A stretch of 64,000 bases of DNA, taken from contig NC_092672.1 of NCBI RefSeq assembly GCF_964355755.1, positions 7,378,001 through 7,442,000 on the forward strand. Reading direction: 5' to 3'. Positions 30,859 to 64,000 of the stretch are shown piece after piece (positions within the stretch are counted from its first letter, which is position 1; the number at the start of each line of letters is the position of its first letter). Made by a program: the position numbers and the translations under genes. Source of the stretch: Antedon mediterranea. Taxonomy: Eukaryota; Echinodermata; Crinoidea; Comatulida; Antedonidae. Under the pieces are notes generated by a model. The model was not told the origin of the DNA. It did not search any database and saw only the letters and a program-made list of their open reading frames with translations.

Positions 30859-33800
30859 TTAGAAAATCCTCTTTCTTAATGCCTGTGACAACATTTTCTT
30901 CTCCTTGTCTAGCCTTGCAAATACAGACTTGTTTTCAATGGCTCGACGCGACATGTTTGGCATTACATCCTCTATTGACCCACATGGGACGGACTTGTGG
31001 ATTAGATATCCAGCCTTGCCTGTAAAACAGAATATAAATACACTAATGTAAAAAATGGTATAATCAATATTAAAACACTAATGTAAAGCTCCCTGCTGTA
31101 AATTGGTAAAGTTAGGGTTAAGTATAGTATGTGTAAAAAGGAAGTACTCTAAATTTAAAAAAAAATTGAAATTAAAACAAAAAGATTTGTTTCACAATGA
31201 AATGTATACAAACAACAATATATGTTTCACAATGAAATGCATATAATAAACAATATTATATTTTTCACAATGGAATGCATAAAAATAAAAAATATGAAAT
31301 GCATAACAAACAAAAGATAACCTTCACAATAGAATGCATAAAAACAAAAGATGGCATATTGTTGTTTACCTAGGCTGTAGGAGACATGATCACACATGCC
31401 CATTAACTGTCCAAAATACACCTTGCCCGATTTCTTTTCAATGCCTTCTTTCTTCATCCTGAAAATATAGTATAGTATTTTGTTCTCTACTACTGTATAC
31501 TATTATCAAATAGGAGGTGTTCATTAATAGGATTTCTACTGTATTTAAAGGCTCTGTCTACACTATCAAACTAGTTTAAAAAGTTTGATGTTCCAAGATA
31601 TGGTAGTGATATGATGTGTGTCCATGCATTTTTGTCACAAAGTTTTATAGTGTAGACAGAGCTGATGCAAAACATATCAAAAATGATAACTTACTTTGCA
31701 ACAACCCTCTTAACAGATTTTTCATTGTGTGTGGCAAACATAGTGATGTATTTTCCATTCAGTGAATTTCTGATCTGGTTAAAGGCATAGTCCATACACT
31801 TGTTATATGACAAATTGGTTTTCTCATAAGAGTCATTGGTTGGAGCTGTACAAAAAAATTAAATCATCAGTTCATCTGACCTATTGGAAGACTAAAAATA
31901 CTTTTTTTATATAATATTTTTTTTTTTTGCTTTCTAACAAATATGTAGTGACACTGACAGTAGAAATGGTTTAATTTGGGCTATTTATGTGGTTTTAAAT
32001 ACTTTAAAATAAGACAAGGTCATTTTATTTGACTTAAATTTAAGGCGCACTCATGTAAGATAAATTCTAAAATAGAATGAAAGAATAACATAGCAAGTAG
32101 GTATAACATGCAAAACAATGCTGTTAATAGTAATTATGATTATACATACAGATAAAACCCTAATTATCAACCCCTTCAAGACGCAACAAAATGTCCATTG
32201 AATGTGGATTGGCCTTGGTAATGAAACTAAATTAAATAAAACATATTTCCTCTTGTTTTGTAGGAAAGTGTATAATTTAGAGGTGTTCTACTGTGTATTT
32301 AATTTTACCTTGAAAACCATTTTTCAATGCTAGGGCCTTTTCAGTTTCCAAGTAAGCACCTCTAACAAGTTTAAATCCAAAACCAAAGTTTTCCTTCTTG
32401 GCCAGTTCACCATCCTTACACAAGTTGTTGAAAGTTTCTTTCAGTAATGCTTGGTACGTGCCCCATACGTATGTTTTCTTGTGGTTGAACTTTGACATCA
32501 TGGCAAACGTGATCATTGCCATTGTGGAGCAGTTACTATAGTATTCTGCGTCCACCAAAAACACAAAGTCACAGTCAACAGATTTCTGAGGGAAAGAAAA
32601 ACCCAAAACAAAATGAACATAAAAGTACAATACAAAAGTAATACAATTCAACAAACATTTTTAATTGTTATTATTCTATTAAGCTGGCCAAGATATTACA
32701 ATTGGCCTTGTTAAGAATTCCCTACAAAATAATAAAAATTGGTTTAATTGACAAAACACAAAAGAAACTAATTTTAAAAGAAAAAAATTTTAATCAGGAT
32801 TCCATAGTTTTGGGATTTGAGGTCATAAACTATATTCTTACCTGGGCTACTTTGTTAATTCTCTGTAGTGCAGCTGCCAATGCCTCGTTCTCTGCTGCAG
32901 TAAGCTCAGGAATTGGCTGTCCATACAAGAAAAAGATTTTTCTTTTATGATATTGAGTTAATATAAGAGTTTTACAGAAATTGTAACACATACAGCGATA
33001 ATGCTGATATAAATAATAATCTGGAATTGTAGAGGTGACAAAATAAAATTATAGAATCATTACTGTTGAAGCACATAATAATGTAGCAGTGAAGATGCAG
33101 GTATAGAAACAGGATAAAATCATGGAAGAGATATCACTAAATACTGTAAGATACTTATTCGTTTACAAACCGAGTATGAATGATGAGTTGTTGACCCAAA
33201 ATCACAGTAGAATAAATTATACCGATACCGAAAAAGAACATTGCTCAGCATTTAAACAGGTTATTTTTGGAAGCAGTCAACCAGATCCACATAGAGGAAA
33301 TCCATGGATGTGATTGGACGGTTAGAATATTATTATAAAGGCCTAGCTGTCTTTACCTGGAGATTGCCATCAAGACCTTGTGCAAAATTCTTATAGTTAA
33401 CCAGACTGTCATTATCAAAATTTCGTCCATTTTTCTTTAGAACAACTTCCAATTTATCCTGTAAAATAAATTAAATACAGTACAGTAATTTGTTTACATA
33501 TTTATAACTATCAATAGTTTAATTTGGGTGACTTTCTGGCAGTACTTAAAATAAATATACTAAGTCTTACCAACAATTCTGTATCAATAAAGCTGGATAA
33601 CTTTATTTGTGAGATTACTTGCTGTGATGTATCACAATGTGTGGTTTGAAGATTAATACACTCTAATACTCCATCAGCATTTGTATTATACCATTGCTCC
33701 TTATCACTAAAAATCAAATTATTAAATCATTTGAGATACTGTGGAAGTAGGATGGTTAGAGCATGGAGGAATTAAATAAATCCTCCATAGAGGATACTGG

Positions 33801-35447
33801 GGAAGCAGGTTCTTGGATTGGATACAGGACAATACTGGGGACATAGGTCCCTGGATTGAGTACAGGACAATACTGGGGAAGCAGGTCCCTGGATTGGGTA
33901 CAGGACAATACTGGGGAAGCAGGTCCCTGGATTGGGTACAGGACAATACTGGGGACGTAGGTCCCTGGATTGGATACAGGACAATACTGGGGACATAGGT
34001 CCCTGGATTGGGTACATTACAATACTGGGGAAGCAGGTCCCTAGATTGGGTACAGGACAATACTAAGGAAGCAGGTTCCTCCTGGATTGAGTACAGGATG
34101 ATACTGGGGAAGCAGGTCCCTGGATTGGGTACAGGACGATACTGAAAAAGCAGGTCCCTAGATTGGGTACAGGACAATACAGGGGAGCAGGTTCCTGGAT
34201 TCCGATTGGGTACAGGGCGATACTGGAGTAGCAGGTCCCTGGATTGGGTACAGGATGATACTGGAGAAGCAGGTTCCTGGATTGGGTGCAGGTCCCTGGA
34301 TTGGGTACAGGACGATACTGGGAAAGCAGGTCCCTGGATTGGGTACGTGACAATAAAGGGGAGCAGGTCCCTGGATTGGGTACAGGAGCTAATTGGAAAG
34401 CAGGTCCCTGGATTGGGTACAGGATATTAGGGAAGCAGGTCCCTGGACTGGTTGTATTATTTACCTGCAACCTGATGAGTCCTCAGCTGTAATGTGCAGC
34501 ATTGATCCAATTTGAGCAGATGAAAGACGGGCAACAGTTTTACCTATTTCTTCTGATGTTTCTCCTGAGACAAATTGACTATAGAAGGTAGCCTTCATTA
34601 CTGAAGAAAACAGTCTTTTACCGAGAATTCCTTGTCCAATTTTCCATAGCTGTAAAAACAGTGGTGTCAATTTGATAGTTATTGATTTATTAAAAGTTGT
34701 TGATTTATTAAAAGTTGTTGATTTGGAATAAAAACAAATGTATACAATAACATTTAAAAACAAAAATGTAAACAAAAATGAAAATAAGGATTGACCTTAT
34801 TAAAATCCATTATTTTTTTACTTAAAGATGTATTGTCCCCCAAAAACATGAAAAATTAAGATTTATAAAATCAGACTTTAAATAGGCCATTTTGTAGTTT
34901 AATCAAGTTATTTACTTCTGTAATTAAAAAAAAATCTATTTGAGGCAAAAAAAAAACCCCAAAAAATGGTTTTTCAACAAAGTTTCTATTTTTATTTATT
35001 ATATTAATATAAAATTAAAATATAGAAAGAAAAGTATAATTAACATACCTTCAATGCATTATTTACGAAAACATTGTAGCTGCAGATTCGCAAAATAAGC
35101 ATAGCTCTAAGCAGTTCGAGGTTACTTTGATTTGCAAATGCTTTTTCTGCATTTTCAAAATCAAGTTCTGCATGTGTGGCCTCATCTTCGTAGCCTAATC
35201 CCAGTGTAGACTTTATATCTACATCATTTGACCATGGACGATCTGGCCACTGAGCACTACCGGAAACGCCACCGAAATGATCTGTTACCGTGTCCGATTT
35301 ATTGACGCTGTCCATATTGCTGCTATACCCATATTTGGGTGTATGCCAAGTAGTTAAAATCCACGGGTATTTCTGCTTTATCAGCCTGTTGTTATCGCGA
35401 CTGATGAGTAAACGACGAAAACCTGTAATGAATCGAATTTGATTCAT
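30859..35447 (-). CDS. PRODH: Proline dehydrogenase, mitochondrial, complete
   Basis: FAD enzyme of the mitochondrial inner membrane that oxidises L-proline to pyrroline-5-carboxylate, the first step of proline catabolism. Exons 5'-3': 35447-35049, 34649-34465, 33706-33571, 33458-33357, 32916-32842, 32585-32309, 31845-31695, 31458-31370, 31019-30859. They give 524 aa in continuous frame. The N-terminus MNQIRFITGFRRLLISR is basic and amphipathic, as expected of a targeting peptide. Barrel landmarks: FVFLVDAEYY, VWGTYQALLKETF, GFGFKLVRGAYLE, TMFATHNEKS, VYFGQLMGMCDHVSYSLG, and the substrate-binding arginine pair in NMSRRAIENKSV near the end. Length is a little short of human PRODH (600 aa), mostly at the N-terminus. 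It converges with the TBC-like gene and diverges from the decarboxylase array. Confidence 0.95.
31546..31663. mobile_element. MITE family A, copy 7
   Basis: aaaggctctgtctacactat at the left and tttatagtgtagacagagct at the right. Short interior. In a PRODH intron. Confidence 0.75.
33791..34457 (-). repeat. 38-bp minisatellite in PRODH intron 2
   Basis: About 17-18 tandem units with a 38-bp period (caggtccctggattgggtac followed by aggacaatactggggaag), with substitutions and a few shortened units. It is GC-richer than the surroundings. The array ends about 7 bp from the exon 2 donor (34464). Because 38 is not a multiple of three, all frames give repetitive pseudo-peptides, which are not genes. 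Confidence 0.95.
34822..34985. mobile_element. MITE family C, copy 3 (one end)
   Basis: Starts TTAAAGATGTATTGTCCCCC followed by 'aaaaacatgaaaaattaag' and 'aataggccat'. The other terminus is missing. In PRODH intron 1. Confidence 0.65.
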
Positions 35448-37491
35448 GATGGCTGCTCTGCAATAAGTTATAATATTAATAATAGTAGTATACTCTGAAT
35501 ACAGAGAATCCCTGTAAACAAGACATCAACAAAACAGTGGCGTATATTACCTACTACAACCAGAAATTTCCAGTTCTCGCCACACTCATTGTGGTCATTG
35601 TTTACTACAATATTTACTACTGTGCTTACTCAAGCGTAAACTTCAAAACATTGTTATCTTATGAAGTGCGCCTTCAATAGCTGCTTGCATAATAGACGAG
35701 TTTATAATATACAGTATATATAAGTGTAACGTTTGTTTATTTAGTGCGTGATATGTTGTTTATGTACGTTACTCTTTGGGTGTGGACCAGCGTAATCCCG
35801 CCGTTATAATGAACGTACTTGCAATACAATAGTTTCGTTTAGTTATTCATTTTTCTTTATTTGATGTATTTAGAGTATACTATTTATGCTATTACTAAGT
35901 AACAAATTTAAAACCGTATCGGTCCGTTTAGAAGTATATATTGAGAGCTTGCTGAATGAATATAGGCCTAAACTAGAGTGGGCCTAGCGTTTTGAATTTA
36001 AACGATACACTATTTAGGTAGACAAATACATTATTGTTGTTAGATTTGATTTCGAAATTCTGAGCCGTTTACGTATGTTCTACAAACGTCGAAAAGTGTC
36101 GGAAAATTGAAAGAAGGTTAGGACTCGGATGATGACTTTTATTGAAATTGGCTACTTTTCGAGATGCGCTTTTTTCAAGAACGTCTGACAATTAACGGTA
36201 ACAGGGTTCAAGTTCTTTTCGTAATCAATACTGTCAATTTGGTGACTTCTATTGCAATATTATAAACTTTCGGAGCTATAAATTCTGTTCTCTATAAACC
36301 AAATGAAAAGCATTAAAAGGCCTCGAGATAGATAGGCTTTTTTTCATGATTACTTTGACTAACTTATAATGAGAGGGGCTTAATTCTTTCGAAATGTCGA
36401 GGGGTTATTAAAGGCATACATGTTGAAAATAATACCTTTGGTGTCTTTAATTAATCACTAAAATTTCTATGTGTAATTAATATCGAAACAATCGTTTATT
36501 TTAGAAACAAATTCATCTAAAAATCAAACCCCGGTCAATGTAGGTAGGTTATGTCATGTTGCTACTACCAGTACCAGTCCTTATTCTTTTGTCAACATAT
36601 CCTGCTTCCGGACAGGAAATAACAATTTGAGGGCAGCACACAGGAAGACTTTATATAAGCAAGTCATTTTGTCTCAAGTGGTCCGTTTTAACCTAGTCTC
36701 CCCTATTGTTTTATTATTATTCTTTAGTTAAAGCGATAAATAGTTGGTTCGATTTTATTTAAATACAATACTTTGGCTCTGATCAAAGATAGTGCCACAC
36801 TATCTTTGCTCTGATGCTGGCGCCCTCAACACCTGTTGATCTATGAACAACTTTTAATCGATCACCCAGTTAAATTTTGACTTCGCTCGCGTAATAAACT
36901 CAGATTGCATACAGCCGACTCAACAACGGACAGCACAGAATTCTAATTAGTATTACCGTATTACTATTACTATTTAGACTGCGATTTTATAGACGTACAA
37001 GGTACAGTACTAAGAATCTTTTTTACTAGTGTGGTTGGTTAATCTGTCAAATATTTATTTAGGTCATTTTATCCCTGCTGTGCCTACAAACGTAAGAATG
37101 GACCGTAACCTCGTAACCTACTGTGAGAATCTTTAAGTTTGAACAGGTAGCGATGGGGTTGGCCCATTCTTATGTTTGTAGGACACAGCAGGGATAGATA
37201 GTTAGTATACTTACTAACTAGGCCTAGTGGAGTGGGACTAGCTACTCGTCTGGCTAAACAACAGAGAGTACATTTCTTTGAATTAAAAAATCTATTCCTT
37301 TTAAACCAACAGGAAATTTGATTATTATTTCAAATAAACCAATAATTATTACTTTATTATAACTAAAAAAAAAATATATATAAATATCAGAAATTATAAT
37401 GTTTTACTTAAATATGAATATGAAAGAAATAAATGTTTATTTGAATTGAATAATTATTAAATAATTCAAGGTAAAAAATATTCAGAAATGT
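35448..37491. other. Spacer between PRODH and decarboxylase copy A
   Basis: Divergent 5' flanks, expected to contain the PRODH promoter (about 35.45-35.8 kb). It holds one palindromic MITE (37070-37196) and a small hairpin at about 36,783-36,810 (aaagatagtgccacactatc). I recognise no gene. Confidence 0.5.
37070..37196. mobile_element. Palindromic MITE with about 30-bp arms
   Basis: tatccctgctgtgcctacaa then acgtaagaatgg at the left; the complement ccattcttatgtttgtagga and cacagcagggata at the right. About 127 bp, non-coding. Confidence 0.75.
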
Positions 37492-38515
37492 ACGGTGGCC
37501 TATAAGTGTCACGGCAACTTTCAAAAAATATCACGGCAACTTTCAAAAAAAGCTACAGCAATTTGAAAAAAGCCACGGCAATTTGAAAAAAGCCACGGCA
37601 AATTAAAAATAAAACATCACGGCAAATTAAAAATAAAACATCGCGGCAATTTAACAAAAATACCACGGCAACTTAAAAATGAAACACCACGGCAAATTAG
37701 TATTGAAACACCACGGCAAATTAGTAATGAAACACCACGGCAAATTACAGAATGCCACGGCGGAAGTGAGTTACCACGGCGGAAGTGAAACCTTGGAATC
37801 TTCGATTTTTTCTGAGGTAAGTAATTATTTGTGCATTGAAGTAAATATTATTATATTAATTTATTATATTTAACTGCTGCATTTACGTGTTTATTGCACT
37901 AGGCCTAGCTATGCCTACTACTAGCCCTAGGCTTAGGCCTACAGTAGTAGCTAGGTCTACTGTAAAAACAACTTGTTATATAAAAAACAGATTACTGTAA
38001 ATATATTAAAACATTGTAGAATGTTATAGGGCCTAGGCCTACCTTGTAATAAGGCCTGGTCTAGCCCGGCCTAGAAAGTTCAAGAAGAGTGCAATAATAA
38101 ACACGTAAACTGCTGCAGTTTAATAAATTAATATAATATTTACATCAATGCACAAACTATTACTTACCTCAGAAAAAATCGAAGATTCCAAAGGTTTCAC
38201 TTCCGCCGTGGTAACTCACTTCCGCCGTGGCATTCTGTAATTTGCCGTGGTGTTTCACTATTAATTTGCCGTGGTGTTTCAATACTAATTTGCCGTGGTG
38301 TTTCATTTTTAAGTTGCCGTGGTATTTTTGTTAAATTGCTGCGATGTTTTATTTTTAATTTGCCGTGATGTTTTATTTTTAATTTGCCGTGGCTTTTTTC
38401 AAATTGCCGTGGCTTTTTTCAAATTGCCGTGGCTTTTTTCAAATTGCCGTGGCTTTTTTTGAAAAAATTGCCGTGATATTTTTTGAAAGTTGCCGTGACA
38501 CTTATAGGCCACCGT
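37492..38515. mobile_element. 1,024-bp foldback element with tandem-repeat arms and 8-bp target duplication
   Basis: Starts ACGGTGGCCTATAAGTGTCA and ends TGACACTTATAGGCCACCGT. It is flanked by exact copies of AGAAATGT (37484-37491 and 38516-38523). Each arm is about 410 bp and consists mainly of repeated words of the form (c)cacggcaa plus an A/T filler. The arms then include two 'ccacggcggaagtga' units and a unique segment reaching 'tttacgtgtttattgcact'. The loop is about 37,908-38,095 and is rich in taggcct. The left arm lacks one or two units present in the right arm. It is located 48 bp upstream of the copy A ATG. No transposase. The 8-bp duplication fits hAT- or P-like integration; the tandem-repeat arms recall foldback elements. 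Confidence 0.9.
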
Positions 38516-38563
38516 AGAAATGTTTTCCTCCTAATAACTAATTAATGATTTAAATAGGTAAAC

Positions 38564-41500
38564 ATGGCAGAAACAAAAGAGTTTCGAGAGCAGGGTAAAG
38601 AAATGGTTGAATACATAGCTGGTTACATAGATACGATTGAAAAAAGACCACCGTTAGCACAAGTAGAACCTGGTTATCTCAGCAAACTGATCCCAAATGC
38701 AGCGCCACAAAAACCAGACAAATGGGAAGATATTATGAAAGATGTCGAGAAAGTCATTATGCCTGGTGTAAGTATCAAAATAATTCGTTTTTCTCTATAA
38801 ACGAGTATAATATTTTATTTAAATAAATAGAAAATAAAACATGTTTTTTATTCATTGAATTAAAAACGATTTGTTGAAAGATTGAACCTTCAATTTAGCA
38901 GTGGAACAGTCAATCTTTCAACTCATTACATTCTCCCTCATATTCAACTCAACAACTCATTGTTAAGTTGAATTCAAGTGATCGTGGAACCAATTAAGAT
39001 TTCTATTCAAAAACATTGACGTTATTATTCTATGCACAGCGTCTTCAAACAATAAACCATGCCTTCTAATATCCCCTTCAATCGTTTAGATGCAATCCTT
39101 AATTACACAGTATTCATTTTACGCATAAAGTCAGATGATTAGAATTGTCAGCGTTCCTACTATTACTTTATGTAAGTAAAAGGTCAATGACGTCATCCAT
39201 TTATATTGTTTTGTCTTGTTAACATGCTAGCCTATCTGATTGCTATGCTCACGTCATGCTTTCATGATAAATGTTAATAATTAATAATAAAATAAAGTTT
39301 AAGCAGTTTTTCAACAAAGCTGTATGACAAATTAAAAATATTTTTTAAAATTGAATCTCAATAATTGAAGTTCAACATTTTGATTGTTTCAGTATATATA
39401 TTAATAATATTTAACTAAATAACATATGTTTAAATGATATGATTTGGATTCTTTTCTAAACTTGCAACAATTTAAAATCTATGTTGAGTTACAAGCCCTT
39501 TTCTATATGTCACAAAATATTAGCTTAAAGTGGAGGTGCTCCCAAAAAAATTCCAAATTTTTATTTTATTCAGTTCTAATAAACATTTACTTTCATCTAA
39601 ATTAAGGTATTTTTTTAATTTGTTGTATGCTGCATGGTTATTCTGAAAAACATCAAAAAATGCCATCTGGGGGGATAGTTCAAATTACAAACCTTTTTCA
39701 CTATTCATTTGCCTGTAAATTGAAAAAAAAAACGATGCGTTTTCAAAAAATCCTTAAAAATATATGTAAGTTCCAGAAATATTTTATACATATATGTTTT
39801 CAGATTCTTCGGAAGCCGAATTTTTCATTCCCGATGTGTTTTTAAGGGCTTGACCAATTCATTTTTGCGTAATTAACGTAATTAAAAAAACTACCCACTT
39901 GACCCAAGTGGGTAATTTTTACTTTCTAGGGAGTCAATCAATTTTGTGCATGCGCGACCTTTCGGCTTTCTTTACTTTCTCTCGCTACTCTCGATCTTCC
40001 TCGCGCTAGACTCAATCGATCTGCTCGACTCGATAAACTAGGATATAAAATACATACATACGATTAAGATCTTTTAATTTTATTAATTTATTAAAGATAT
40101 TGTCCCCCTGAAAATTTATTTGTGGCAATTTTTTTTTCTTGAATATGCCATTTTAACATCACATATACGGTAATAGTTATTCAGTTTTACCAAAAATTGG
40201 ATTGAAAACTGTAATTTAAAGCACAAATTAGTGAAATTGGCAGCCAATGGGTTTTTGGTTGAATTTAACTGATTATTTTGATTTTGATTTAAGTGCATGA
40301 AAACATTTTTTTTTCTACTGAAGTGATTAACTTGTTTGGGGGAAATAATACATTTTTACTAATGCAATGTTTTCTCACATGCAGGTTACCCATTGGCATA
40401 GCCCTCATTTCCATGCTTATTTTCCAACTGGCAACTCATTTCCAGCCATCCTTGGAGATATGCTGAGTGATGTCATCGGCTGCATTGGTTTTACTTGGGT
40501 AAGATATATAAGATGAGTGAGTTGCACGACTCACGAAACAAGCCTGTAGAGACCAAACTGTAGTTTTTACTTCTTTTCCAGACTTAACGTATATTTTAGC
40601 TCTACTTTACCATATTGAGCACTTTTTAGACGGTTACATTGAACCGAACATTTATATATAATATATATATAATTACATTAGGCATAGAACATTCATTCTG
40701 AACTGCCCGGTGATATACTGAAATTTAATTAATTTGGAATGATAAGATGAGGAAATCTGTGAGAATGAGAAAAAGTCGCCCCAACCAAGATTCAAGACCA
40801 AGACCTCCTGCTTGATATGCAGATGTCCTAACCATTAGACCACTGGGGCTTTCATGGTATAGTTCAAACCCAATTGGATAGTGACTATATACAAACCACA
40901 TTTTCAGACTTTCAGAGATTGAAATTAATTCCTCTAGAAGCCTCTATAACATTAACATTCGACTTGAAAAACATCTTCACTCTAATTTATAATATTTATT
41001 CATAATTTAAAATAAATCATTATAATCACAATTGAGTTTGTAATACCATTGAAGAATATATTTTAAAAATATTTTGTATGCATAATATTGATATTTTAAT
41101 TATTGGTCTCTCGCGGAAAGCCACCTTCTGCGGCTGATCCGTTTGTGTCGTGGGGGTGGCTACTCCAGATATATTATCTGCAGTGTTGTATATTCCAATG
41201 ATTGGTGGTAAAAAAAGAAATATGAAAACACATGCGGTAGCTTATATTGTTGTAAAATATTACTGTAAGCCATATAATGCCAATAAACGTGCACCAGCAG
41301 AAACAGTAGCGTTCAGATAATGACAAATTATAATATAGATTATAATTAGTACAAACTATTTTTATTTTTATTTATATTTTTTTATATTTTTTTAAAAAAA
41401 CCAGAAACAACAGCAGAAACAAATCCGCCACTTATTTATTTATTTATTTTATTTATTTGTTCTTTCTTTAAACTGAAATACACTTTCAATACAAATTTAC

Positions 41501-48961: not shown

Positions 48962-51900
48962 AGACCACCTCTGTGTACTTGCGCTTTAGTTAAAGGAGGA
49001 ATTCAAAGGAGAATCGGATTTTCGTCCTTTGCAAAAGTTGTTGATCAGATAGATGCTACAGTATGTAGTGTGTATTGACAAATTGACATTTATAAAAAAA
49101 ACATATTCAACGTTCACACTTAAGCTCTGTCTACACTATCAAATTTTATGTAACAAAAATGTGCCTATATATGGACATGGCGATGTCATATAACTACCAT
49201 ATTTGGGCACATCATACTTATTTCGTCGAACTAGTTTGATAGTGTAGACAGAGCTGTATACTATAAAATGTATAATATGAGTGTAAATGTTGAATATAGG
49301 TTTTCTGTAAAATGCTCCTACTTAAGTTAATACCACTAAAATATTTGTTGAAGTGAAATACTTAGTGTTAAAGGAAAATATCTGACTTAAGTGTGATTGG
49401 TGAAAATGGGAACTGGATTAATTGGTGGTGTATTAGTAGTATATTTTTACTTTTGATTTATTAAACATTACTTATTTTACCAATAAGCAATACAAATTTA
49501 TAAATAACATTTTTATTTTTTTATTTTTTATTTAATCGGTATAAAAAGACTCAAAATACAACTCATAGTTGAAATGAAGAGCTTACATATGAAAATGATA
49601 ATTCACATAAAACGATGAAAAAAGTTAAACGATGAAAAAACACATTAAGGCCTATGATACAGTAATAATTTCTGTACAATTGATTAAACTTAAAATTACT
49701 ATAAAAATTGCACAAAGGTCAAAAGATAAAATTAATAATTACAAATTCTGAAATATTTACAAATTTAAAAAATAGACACTAATATTATTAATCACATTAT
49801 TTTTATACACCAATAATATATATGTATAATTCATATGAATGAATGAATGTGCAAGCATGGTGGTGGGTTATATTAATCAGGGAAATATATTTTTGATTTA
49901 TGCAGGGATATTTATAATAATAATAATAAGTATTATTCATTTTTTAAATGTTTTATTTCGCAATCTCTGGTCCCAGTTAAGCTTGAGAACGATAATAAAT
50001 ACAGTTGTACTATTACTTTTACCTTTAAAATCTAAAATTGAAGGCCATTAAACTTAACGTCTATTATTAGTGCAGGACGAAAGAAAATTACAACCAATTA
50101 ATTGAAGCAAGGCAATTCAACATTGCCTTGATTGGAGCATACATCTTTAATATCCAGTTTTTATTTCCGTTTGTACCTTTTTTTTTATTTCTGTAAATCA
50201 ACATTTTTTTTTCACTTTGAACATTTCATTATGTCTTTGATTATATTTTATTTAATTAATATTATAAGAATTACTTTATATTTTAATATGTTATTAATAT
50301 TATTCAAACTACTTAGTTTTCAACATACAGTATTATTATATAGGCCTATATATAAAATTGAACTACAAATTAGATGCAGGTTAGTAGAATGAGATTCATA
50401 GTTTTATTTCAAACTTCTTAGATGTTTAGAAAAATTGGTATAGAAGTTTTTAGTACTGAAATGTAGAAAAATGTAATGTTTGTAAAATTTACGACATATT
50501 ACGAAAATGGCAATTATATGTATATATAATATATTATATTCATAATTTTTAGTTGAATTGAGTGCAGTTTTTCGATGAATAAATTGTCTTCAATGGTTAA
50601 TTTTGTTTGTACGAAAGCCCATTATTGTCACTGCATGTACTGTGATTTGCTGTGACACTATTAGGCCCTCGTATATTTTGTATTTATGTTCAGCTACTGA
50701 ATATCAGTGAGAGTCGCATACAGTTTCAATCAAAAATAAAGCAACACAATGTTTAAAATGGTTTGTGAACGCAAGTCTTGTAACTTGAAGGAGTGCAAAG
50801 TTATAAGTTTGGTACAACGAGGGGAGTTCACTGGATACAACAACTTGACATAACTATTCGTTTCTTAACCGATTTTCAGGCCGCCATTTAACCGGTTATT
50901 AAACATTTTTCCTGTGTCTGCTGCCAAGAAATTGTGGTTAATTTATTCACATGGTTAATAATCGGTTATTTTTCCGCAGCAAAAACAGGTTATATTAATG
51001 GGATAACTGCGCTGATAATGACAACATAATACAACTTATGATGATTCACGCGAAGTTGGGCTGACGAGAAAAACGTATTAAACGCGGGAAAAGCAACAAG
51101 ACGTAACATAAAACGAGGTGGAATCAACAATTCAATTCTTCAATTCAATTCTTTATTACATCAAAACAAATTTGATAAATTAACATCAAGAAGGTATAAG
51201 CAACAAAACAAACAACATCAGAACTTTCAAAATAATTAATATATCTCCTAAAAAAGCGGAGTTAACATAAACCATAAATCGATAACAGGCAAAATAATAT
51301 CAAAATCATGCGCGACAAATTGAATTAATATGTCATTGTCAAAATAAATAAATAATAATAAATAGCTCCATCTCTAACATTGCTATACAAATCATAATGT
51401 AAATCTGAATAAACTGATCATTTGATTAAAAAATGAAATTCGCCTTTAATTCCGTTCCTATTGCAAAAGGTATATAGTCTATCAGAGGGAAAAGTTTGGG
51501 TATGGTGCCCCCTTTTCAATCATCAACAACGAATATGCTCTTGTTCTCAGTTGCACAATTCGAGCGCATCTCGACATTGAATAGTCCACAAATTCATTTC
51601 ATTTCATTATTTATTCGGTCTATTTCAGTACATGAAAAAAAAATGAAATCGGAGAGACCAGTGTTAACTTAAGTGAACTTAATCACTGTAGCTGAACCGG
51701 TTGACCCAACCCCATAGTCAGTTTACACATAAAGGACAACAAATACAGTTAAAGCTAGGTACAGGCATGAATTTTAAATATAATATCTGGTTAATTGTAC
51801 ATAAATCAAATATTTGTAACAGAAATCAAGACTAAAAAACATGAATTTCCCTTAATATGGCCAAATACAAAATTTGGCAAAATTCTGTCATAAAAACCAG

Positions 51901-54407: not shown

Positions 54408-57400
54408 ATGTCATCGGAAACAAACGAGTTTCGAAAGCAAGGTAAAGAAATGGTTGACAACATAGCTCGGTACATAGATACGATTGAAGAGAGGCCACCG
54501 TTAGCACAAGTAGAACCTGGTTATCTCAGCAAACTGATCCCAAATGCAGCACCACAAAAACCAGACAAATGGGAAGATATTATGAAAGATGTCGAGAAAG
54601 TCATTATGCCTGGTGTAAGTATAGTAGTAGTATTATAATTTAATCTTATTTGGAAATAATTACCATTTTGTGAATGTTTCCATTCGTTGGGCAAAATGTA
54701 CAGTTCTCCTGTGGGATTCGAACCCATAACACACAGATCACTATCTCACAAATAAAAAGAACACATTTTAAAATTGACAGTTGGGGGGAAAATTTAAAAG
54801 CTCAAGAACTTACATTTCCATCATATTGAACGGTGCTTAATGATAAATATCACAGCATTAAGCTTTGCACAAGCTAGTTTGACAAACAAAGAGTGATGTG
54901 GTCAAATTATGGTAGTGATATGAGGTCATATATGGGCCCATCACCTAAAGTTTGATAGTAGAGACAGAGCTTAATAGTAATTCATAATAATTTAATTTAA
55001 GTTGTCTTTTTAAACAGGTTAGCCATTGGCAAAGTCCTAATTTCCATTCTTATTATGAAGCTGGACATTCCTGTCCATCAATACTTGGGGATATGCTAAG
55101 TGATGGCATTGGCTGCCTTGGCTTTTCGTGGGTAATTATTTTTGTTTGTTTTATCAGAGACATCATCAAGAGATCTCTACTATCTATCAAACTACACACA
55201 ATTACAGCCATTTAAATATTATTAATAATGTCAGCATTATTTTATGTAGATTGCCAGCCCAGCTTGCACAGAACTTGAGACGATTGTGGTAGATTGGTTA
55301 GGTAAAGCAATAGGCCTGCCTGAGGAATTCCTGACAGAAGGTAGTGGAAAAGGTGGAGGGGTAATACAGGTAATTTCAAAATTAATTAAATAAATTAAAT
55401 GGTAACACGAAGAGTGGAAAATAAATACTCCGGTGAAATTTTAATTGGTTATATCTTAACCACAAGACCATCACGAGAGATCCAACGATGACCGACTGGC
55501 TAAATATTCTTTGGTCATCAGCGTGTTTGATTCTTTAATGCTACTCATACCGTAATCTTAATATTATTTATTTTCTTTTTCAGGGATCTGCTAGTGAAGC
55601 TACTCTATTTTCTTTGCTGGCAGCCAAGATGAAAACAATTCGTCAGGTTCTTGAAAGGGAGCCGGATAAGGACCAGTACGATGTATTGCCAAAAATGATT
55701 GCCTATACTTCAGACCAGGTGAGAATGCATTGCATTTAAGATAATTATTAAACCGTTCAAACGAACTATTAAACCATTCAATCGAATTATTCCAACATTA
55801 TTGGTATGTGTGGATAGACTTTGTTTCTGGATTTCTTCACTTTTTTAAGTCAATCCAAAGAGTATTAAAGTAGGCTATAAACATCACTTTAAGTTAATTT
55901 TTAATTTTACATGGCACCGCTACAGGCACATGCGTCAGTTGAAAGAGCAGCTTTGATGGGCTCAATCAGAATGAGAATTCTTCCATCAGATGACCAGCAT
56001 GCGATGAGAGGAGACACTTTGAAGAAAATAATCGAAGAAGACAAAGCCAAAGGACTTTTGCCATTCTTTGTAAGAATCATTAGTCGAAAATGTAATTTAT
56101 TTAATTCTATGATACATTTACGTTAATAATGTTATTGTTAGAGTAGGTTTTGTATAAATTTATTTAAAGTTAATTTCAAATATATATATATATTTCTTTT
56201 TATGTAATTATTGTAATTATTGATTTAGGTTTGTGCTACACTTGGAACCACTGGGTGTTGTTCGTTTGATAACTTACAAGAACTTGGAGAAATATGTAAG
56301 AACAAACCAAGATTATTAACCAGACGTTTTATAATTTTTTTCTATTCATTCCTATGTTTTTAATTCAATACAATTATTAATATATGAATAATTTGTCTGT
56401 TTGTTGATAGGTGAAAAAGAAAACATATGGATGCATGTAGATGCTGCATACGCAGGCACAGCTTTTCTATGCCCGGAATTTAGATATCTTTTGAAAGGCG
56501 TCAACGTAAGCGAAATAACAAACTTTATAGCATTAAACCAATAATAATAATGATCGTGTTTTTTATACCGATAGCGCGTATTGCACAATGATTCTAAGCG
56601 CTTCACATTATTACTACGGTCATTTTTTTGGGATTAAACACGTATGGAAACATACTCCCTTAATGCAGCTAGTAATCAGTGCAAAGTTGTGTCTTGATCT
56701 AACCGGGTACACATTTATACTTCTGGGTGGAGAGAAGCAAACGTAACTAAAGTGTCTTGCCTAAGGATACAAACAATGCGACAAACTTTGGATTCTAACT
56801 CACGATCTCACGATCAGTAATCAAACGTAATCACTGCGCCCTGTATACCATTTTTGTAAAATGTAATTTAATGTTAAAGTAAACAGACTAATAGTGTATA
56901 TTATGTATTATTTTAGTACGCCACTTCCTTCAACTTTAACCCCCACAAGATGATGAGAGTAAACTTTGATTGTTCGGCATTGTGGGTAAAAGACGAGGAT
57001 GATCTGGTGCACGCATTCTATATAGATCCTACCTACCTAAAACATAAACATCAGGGAGCAGTCAAAGATTTCAGGGTTAGAAAATTCTTTAAATTACAAA
57101 ATAATAACTGCAATTATTCCAATTTATTACAGCTTAATTTATAATAACTGACGGCTAGATTATCTATGCATAGGTCTAGTTAGTTTTCAGGTTAAAACAC
57201 TAATCACTAATTAACATGAAGTTAATTATCGTCACAGCATTGGCAGATACCCTTTGGAAGACGTTTCCGATCGTTAAAACTGTGGTTTGTTCTCCGAATG
57301 TTTGGAATCGAGCAGCTACAATCCCATGTCAGAAAGGTACGTTTTTCTTGGTATCAAGAGCAGCCCTGTAGATCAAAGGTTATGTGAGTCTAGATGTAGG

Positions 57401-62203: not shown

Positions 62204-64000
62204 ATGTCATCAGAATCAAAAGAGGTTCGAAAACAGGTCAAAGAAATGGTTGACTACATAGCTTGGTACATAGATACGATTGAAGAGAGACCATCGTTAG
62301 CACAAGTAGAACCTGGTTAGCTCAGCAAACTGATCCCAAATGCAGCACCACAAAAACCAGAAAAATGGGAAGATATTATGAAAGAATTAGAGAAGGCCAT
62401 CATGCCAGGTGTAAGTATTTTTTACTTCGCAATTTCCACGATCATCAAAAAATCAGAAAAACAAACAGTTATTTGAAAAAAGTTTCGAAAACAGAAGTTT
62501 GGTGGGTTGTGGAGCCGTGAAATGTGCAAAAAGTCACATTTGTGCAAACAACCACATTTGTGCAAACATTTTACCTTTAAATGTGCAAATCTGTTAAAAT
62601 TCATAACCCGCAAATGTGCAAACATCTTGCCGTTAAATGTAAAAACGGTCAGATTTGACGTTAAATGTGCAAAAGGTATTCTACAAATGTGCAAATCATT
62701 TATTCAGTCAAATTCCTATTACATTTTATATTTTTGGTTCGTATGTCTTTCAGAGTAGAAATAACAATAGGAAAAAGAGTCTAATAAATTTAAAATGCTC
62801 AATATCTTAATAACTAATTATACTGTTGTATTTTATTATGATCAAAGGCTCTAAATCGCACATTTGAAGGTAAAATGTTTACACAAATGTGGTTGTTTGC
62901 ACAAATGTGACTTTTTGCACATTTCACGGCTCCACATGGGTCTCTTCTAACTCATGATCACCATATCGCTAATACCGAGTAAACAAACTCCTAAATTTCT
63001 TTCAAACACGTCTCTCTACATGATAGTAGTTGCAAATATCAAAGCATGTTTTTCAACTAAAGCATAGAGCCTCACTTCCAGGTTGCACGTGCTGCTTATT
63101 TATCAATTAGAGTCCATTCAATTTATACAATAAAACGAATTATACAATAAACAAATTATACAATAAAACGTTTTTTATTTGTGTATAAACAGGTTAGCCA
63201 TTGGCGTAGTCCTAATTTTCATGCCTTCTATGAAGTTGGAAGTTCATGTCCATCAATACTAATGTGATATGCTGGGTGATGGCATTGGTTGTGTTGGCTT
63301 TACGTGGGTAATTATTGTGTTTGTCTTTTACATATCATATTTTGTCTTTCGAAAAAAGAAACCATTGTTTGTCTATAATAACAAAAACAAATATTGTGGT
63401 TTATTTGTCTTTTACAAACAATGGTTTGTTCATAATAAAAAGACAAAATGTGGTTTTTAAAAGACATGATGATATGATAGTTTGTCTTTTTATAAAATTC
63501 CTGCTTATCAAATTATCAGATTCCTGCAACAAGGAATACAATCACACAATTAATAAATATTTTTGGAATATATATATATTATTTGAAATATTTGTTTTAT
63601 AAGACACATACAGCCGCAGGTTGGTTTTCAATCAGTCACTACGTTGCAAACAGTGTGAACGTGCAATAGAAACATTTGATAAAACTATTATAAAACTGCT
63701 ACTGATAACTACTATTAACCAATCCGATAGTAAAGATACACTCTTGTGTGCATAACATCACTTTTTGAATAGCACGAGATTCGAAAATAGCCAATCATAT
63801 AGTAAGCATACACTCGGTGACCAAGTGGTTATAAGACAGTGGAACCGCATCCCTAGACATAATACTGAGAATGTTTCTTGGCTCATTGGCTCAAAATATA
63901 CTGGTGATACGACGTCATTTATTGTTCATTATTGTGCCTCCTTCAATAATTCAACATTGTTTTGTGTAGATTGTCATCCCAGCTTGCACAGAACTTGAAA
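62204..64000 (+). pseudogene. Decarboxylase copy C, pseudogene, continues off the right edge
   Basis: Three exons are visible: 62204-62410, 63193-63307 and 63970 onward. Exon 1 is close to copy B (MSSESKEVRKQVKEMVDYIA) but has an in-frame TAG at 62318-62320 (codon 39), where A and B have TAT (Tyr). Exon 2 is 115 bp instead of 114: one extra base near 63260 shifts the frame after SCPSIL and brings in TGA. Splice sites are still intact (gtaagt at 62411, cag before 63193, gtaatt at 63308), so decay is recent. Exon 2 shares the glutamate (HAFYEVG) with copy B, placing B and C together. The exon 3 start reads IVIPACTELE. Confidence 0.88.
62509..62935. mobile_element. 427-bp foldback element with atgtgcaaa-repeat arms
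   Basis: Left arm GTGGAGCCGTGAAATGTGCA, right arm ends TGCACATTTCACGGCTCCAC. Arms of about 80 bp are almost perfect and contain several 'catttgtgcaaac' words, which recur in the interior too. No clear target duplication. It occupies intron 1 of pseudogene copy C. Confidence 0.8.

Follow-up and report, generated by a model that had tools for sequence, protein, structure and literature searches.

Foldback/Tetris elements are mostly assigned to Mutator (PMC4079207), and Galileo, a foldback-like element of the P superfamily in Drosophila, carries secondary transposase (THAP) binding sites within the tandem repeats of its arms (PMC3688188). Members of the IS3EU superfamily have TA..TA ends and usually 6-bp target-site duplications (TSDs) (PMC10045372), with fungal members ending in TAYGG..CCRTA (PMC12730594); alpha-kinase and TET passengers have been described in this superfamily, and no array-bearing foldback forms are described in these reports (PMC10045372, PMC12730594). 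Here, we analyzed a foldback insert in a 64,000-nucleotide stretch of the Antedon mediterranea genome (NC_092672.1, positions 7,378,001 to 7,442,000; the window), which lies upstream of a decarboxylase-family gene (gene A). The insert is of recent origin, lacks coding sequence and belongs to a known type of cut-and-paste transposon, that of the IS3EU superfamily. With high confidence, we regard it as a non-autonomous, internally deleted foldback copy of such a DNA transposon, because its TACGG..CCGTA ends, its 6-bp duplications and the integrase-core transposase of its partner fit the superfamily. The window sits on contig C3, and searches covered the 354-Mb haploid assembly (18 contigs).

The family represented by the insert shares with IS3EU the 6-bp duplications, the TACGG..CCGTA ends, an integrase-type DDE transposase and a passenger gene convergent with the transposase gene, but it is foldback in form, with arms of tandem CACGGC units, and its passenger is HECT-like. 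The hairpin form, the modular repeat arms, the non-autonomous copies and a link to satellite-like repeats are shared with Foldback/Tetris elements, whereas those elements have 8-10 bp duplications and, where known, a Mutator-type origin. Galileo differs in that its transposase is of another class, and the bounded copies found here have 6-bp duplications. The element resembles Foldback in form, yet it is of neither the Mutator nor the P kind. Sea-urchin TU elements (1983 report, cited in PMC4079207) likewise have long inverted repeats whose outer part contains short tandem repeats, but these repeats are about 15 bp long and the duplications are 8 bp; they can be likened to the insert by description, not by sequence, and serve as a lead only. 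An array-armed foldback variant of IS3EU is apparently undescribed in the searched literature, although Repbase entries might contain one.

The foldback insert and its mobile family

The following features were assigned to the insert:

37491..38516, no strand: whole foldback element, 1,026 bp, very probably a non-autonomous IS3EU copy; termini TACGGTGGCC...GGCCACCGTA common to the copies
37485..37490, no strand: left TSD GAAATG, set from the 6-bp duplications of other bounded copies and from empty sites
38517..38522, no strand: right TSD GAAATG, set from the bounded-copy comparison
37491..37517, + strand: left terminal motif TACGGTGGCCTATAAGTGTCACGGCAA, from the genome-wide motif count
38490..38516, - strand: right terminal motif, from the termini of family copies
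37509..37792, + strand: left-arm array of CACGGC-core units with spacings of 20, 22 and 24 bp
38197..38498, - strand: right-arm array of CACGGC-core units, with one 20-bp unit more than the left
37900..38085, no strand: unpaired middle (loop) of ~180 bp, limits approximate

Each arm begins with TACGGTGGCCTATAAGTGTCACGGCAA, followed by ~12 to 14 CACGGC-core units that are mostly 20, 22 or 24 bases apart, and all 20 exact CACGGCAA/TTGCCGTG words of the window lie inside the insert. The initial annotation had described two long inverted arms of repeated words, unequal by one or two units, that would form a long hairpin, and this description holds: CACGGCAA words make up both arms, which are ~400 bp each and pair over nearly their full length (DNA minimum free energy of -492 kcal/mol in a folding prediction), and their lengths up to the splice-donor mark are 327 and 350 bp, so that they differ by roughly one 20-bp unit and a few further bases. 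The same annotation had placed the insertion just 5' of a gene, in agreement with the 47 bp found between the element end and the ATG of gene A (38564). It had also given a bounded insert of 1,024 bp with an exact 8-bp duplication; the bounded insert stands, but its size is 1,026 bp and its duplication is the 6-bp GAAATG. The apparent 8-bp duplication AGAAATGT arises because the terminal T/A of the element and one matching base on each side lengthen GAAATG, and it was ruled out by the 6-bp duplications of the other bounded copies and by empty sites holding the target once.

The 27-base terminus was found at 113 places in the genome (48 + 65) with up to 3 mismatches, while the reversed-pattern control gave none. 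The family comprises at least 113 termini and more than 20 bounded copies, most of the latter 0.8-1.2 kb long. A perfect 6-bp duplication was present in every doubly bounded copy except L063, and L073, which is also bounded, has matching duplicated bases as well. All bounded copies start with TACGG and end with CCGTA, with a single exception ending in CCGAA. For the empty-site test, the two flanks of each of 22 insertions were fused around a single 6-bp target and searched against the genome. For seven of them (L009, L012, L013, L015, L022, L055 and L062), this gave related sites without an insert, which are 93-99% identical across the junction and contain the 6-bp target once. For the window insertion itself, the haploid assembly yielded no empty site, and the joined flanks matched only their own two halves, exon paralogues and an unrelated upstream repeat; the check for empty sites was therefore positive for the family and negative for this insertion. 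The gene copies B (54414) and C (62210) were rejected as empty sites, as their upstream DNA fails to align with that of A. The annotation had named the lack of both other copies and empty sites as a refutation, and both were found for the family.

The element is real and mobile. It is hardly conceivable that the insert is an immobile inverted local duplication or satellite fragment: part of the family does travel in segmental duplications on C4 and C5, but the copies are scattered over C1 to C11 with different flanks, and the dispersed copies, their duplications and the empty sites refute this explanation.

Several copies have a more complex history. A foldback copy on C2 (L010:333-6698) is split by a BEL/Pao long terminal repeat (LTR) retrotransposon (Peptidase_A17, E 3.5e-45; RVT_1), which accounts for its length of 6.4 kb. 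Partial or mini copies at C4:16.19-18.17 Mb (L065-L067) and C5:12.3-14.1 Mb (L068, L069) were multiplied along with their surroundings in segmental or gene-array duplications. At C2:26334166-26334284 (L070), three terminus fragments stand in tandem with a 46-bp period, and at C10:20884244 and C10:20888584 one insertion is present twice, 4.34 kb apart, i.e., it was duplicated after insertion.

A full-length partner and the superfamily assignment

A longer relative with a transposase gene, for which the annotation had suggested a search, was identified on C2 (L009; C2:4389848-4396512; 6,665 bp; TSD AATATC/AATATC). Its termini are identical to those of the family, and its arrays and inner arm are also alike. 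From left to right, this 6.7-kb element contains a transposase gene of ~390 codons with one internal stop and a convergent open reading frame (ORF) of 685 amino acids. Both halves of the transposase match Pfam rva_4 (PF24764, Integrase core domain; E 5e-11 and 1.3e-13), the only significant Pfam match in L009. D149, D209 and E243 are invariant in an alignment of six transposases of this genome (that of L009 and five others). The AlphaFold model of the transposase was moderate (pLDDT 66), and its best PDB matches were IstA, TnsB, Mu transposase and foamy-virus integrase (E 3e-6 to 1e-3). The second ORF appears HECT-like, with HUWE1 (E 0.0011) and E6AP (E 0.011) as best PDB sequence matches, a Pfam HECT match at E 0.034 and, by eye, an LP.A.TC-like cysteine motif at its C-terminus; single-sequence structure prediction yielded no usable model for this protein. 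Two further partners were found: one on C1 (C1:..-32772531), truncated on its left side and with the second ORF intact, and one on C7 (C7:11619081-11639958), which is 20.9 kb long, has matching CATTTC duplications and presumably contains nested inserts.

The family thus shows the 6-bp TSD of IS3EU (in all bounded copies but one, and in the seven single-target empty sites), TA..TA ends of the TAYGG..CCRTA type, and a DDE transposase with a retroviral-integrase-like core, as seen in the rva_4 match, the invariant D, D and E and the integrase-fold PDB matches. No described family had been recognized in the initial annotation; the termini, the 6-bp duplication and the transposase of the partner place the element in the IS3EU superfamily, which is a match to a catalogued family at the superfamily level, an outcome that the annotation had listed among those that would refute it.

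It is very improbable that the insert instead belongs to the Mutator or P/Foldback type and has an 8-bp target duplication, like classical foldback elements. The long, internally repetitive arms recall FB, Galileo and Tetris (PMC4079207), and 8 matching bases had been noted in the initial annotation, but the duplications are 6 bp rather than the 8-10 bp of Mutator-type foldbacks, the empty sites hold a 6-bp target once, and the partner encodes an integrase-type DDE enzyme. Neither a Mutator-type transposase nor a THAP or P-type Pfam match was found in L009, where rva_4 was the only significant match. The duplications and the transposase together refute a Mutator or P identity.

Arms, arrays and splice donors

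Two types of arm were distinguished in the 16 copies measured, and every copy has one of each. Type-a arms are 97.8% identical to each other and 95.3% identical to type-b arms, whether of their own copy or of other copies. All copies therefore trace to a single founder lineage with an asymmetric arm pair, and divergence from the arm consensus is ~1.8%. Homogenization of arms within a copy was tested in the same comparison of 16 copies and was not seen; each arm evolves on its own, with no copying of one into the other. Arms differ chiefly in a 20-bp sub-array of about 1 to 6 or more units, and elsewhere the spacing hardly changes. Unit number in this sub-array varies separately in the two arms, which bears out the earlier suggestion that they change length independently; it would change by slippage or unequal pairing.

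Comparison of unit with unit revealed that the CACGGC core is 92-100% conserved and the spacers about 40-90%. Most likely, the arrays represent multiple transposase-binding sites, like the secondary sites in the arm repeats of Galileo (PMC3688188). The transposase of the longer relatives would recognize the TACGG termini and probably also the repeated CACGGC units of both arms, and would then excise the element and reinsert it with a 6-bp staggered cut. Arrays also occur in two other IS3EU families of this genome, one with the ends TACGAAAGCCTATTAGGGCC and 21-bp AATTCGAAATTTCGAATTATT-type arrays (L079-L082, of which L079 is a diverged member) and the other with the ends TACGGAAGCGTTAAAGTGCC and arrays of about 54 bp (L077, L083). 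In both families, the array starts within about 50 bp of the terminus and its units are unrelated to the CACGGC arrays, and the transposases share the rva_4 domain.

Two of these IS3EU-type elements, L081:2146-7722 (C1) and L082:314-6261 (C6), are 5.6 and 5.9 kb long and have the exact TSDs ATACTT and GGAAAC. Both are palindromes in which either arm contains a transposase gene and the two genes point towards each other. Such inverted transposase pairs were also found on C1, C4, C8 and C9. In the window, two inverted IS3EU-like ends (TACGAAAGCCCATTATTGTCAC / TACGAGGGCCTAATAGTGTCAC; 50610-50673) form a 64-bp pair that encloses next to nothing and lacks matching duplicated bases in its flanks; this pair is probably a relic.

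In addition to the arrays, each arm of the insert contains a consensus splice donor. The features related to splicing are as follows (the slash marks the junction):

37812..37822, + strand: consensus splice donor CTGAG/GTAAGT, read from the sequence, facing inward (towards gene A), junction between 37816 and 37817
38162..38172, - strand: CTGAG/GTAAGT donor of the right arm, read from the sequence
38550..38557, + strand: candidate splice acceptor TTAAATAG, predicted from the sequence, junction between 38557 and 38558, six bases ahead of the ATG of gene A
38564..38769, + strand: first coding exon of gene A, matching the beginning of the pyridoxal-dependent decarboxylase family (PF00282)

The genome contains 35 occurrences of the longer donor string CTGAGGTAAGTAATTA, and the ones compared fall in family copies. 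In L009, the donor stands at the same place in each arm, and plausible acceptors lie further inward, ahead of the transposase gene (TTCTATTTTCAG) and of the HECT-like gene (CCTTTTAG), which suggests that the arms probably supply a promoter and a non-coding first exon to both convergent genes.

These donors and acceptors, together with the left-arm donor of the window that faces the acceptor of gene A, favor a tentative alternative for the arrays, namely that the words chiefly bind host proteins (in promoter, enhancer or silencing functions) rather than the transposase, the arm acting as promoter and first exon for the genes of the element and being able to drive or re-splice gene A. The unrelated arrays of the other IS3EU families suggest family-specific recognition over shared host factors, and the alternative, which was drawn from sequence, is compatible with transposase binding. 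That the arrays are functionless by-products of slippage in a long palindrome is unlikely. The 20-bp sub-array does vary freely, from 1 to 6 or more units and independently in the two arms, but outside this sub-array the spacing of the units stays constant, the unit cores are conserved between diverged spacers, and two other IS3EU families also have arrays at their ends, with unrelated units.

Several points weigh against an IS3EU element with transposase-binding arrays. Membership in IS3EU relies on published traits and Pfam, and all three partner copies are broken or incomplete, none having both genes intact. That the transposase binds the arrays is a prediction, and in recent copies the words show no stronger conservation than the spacers do (2.3% v 1.5%), although drift after insertion would give the same result.

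Gene A and the surroundings of the insert

The first coding exon of gene A matches PF00282 with an E-value of 7.9e-6 and 25.3 bits, just below the Pfam cut-off of 27, in a search with this single exon. Its paralogues B and C, at 54414 and 62210, have a TAG shortly before the ATG exon, which is consistent with an intron in the 5' untranslated region. Given the left-arm donor facing the acceptor of gene A and the TAG in B and C, it is possible that the insert affects gene A or donates an exon to it. A further proposal is that the arm is a portable promoter and first exon that would start or re-splice a gene A transcript from the GAG/GTAAGT donor to the acceptor of A, and that, more generally, the family-specific arrays of IS3EU would be combined promoter and transposase-binding modules; we consider this speculative and quite improbable.

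The first exon of copy C (62210-62410) contains an in-frame stop, so this copy may be a pseudogene. Directly upstream of the element, an AT-rich dispersed repeat (37349-37451) has at least 36 further matches in the genome at 85-96% identity. Further upstream, an imperfect inverted repeat of about 127 bp (37070-37196) is possibly another small hairpin transposon, and an open frame built of the repeated motif YPIQGPxxPVLSCTQSRDL (33722-34426) is probably no gene but a tandem repeat.

Repeat-armed foldbacks have mostly been assigned to Mutator, with P-type exceptions, and the same form is found here in a superfamily with a retroviral-integrase-like transposase; a single genome reveals the partner, the empty sites and the course of amplification. 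Gene A offers a concrete case of a promoter-proximal insertion bearing a ready splice donor. The genome contains at least three IS3EU families with subterminal arrays, each of unrelated units, which suggests that multiplied end-binding sites have evolved repeatedly.
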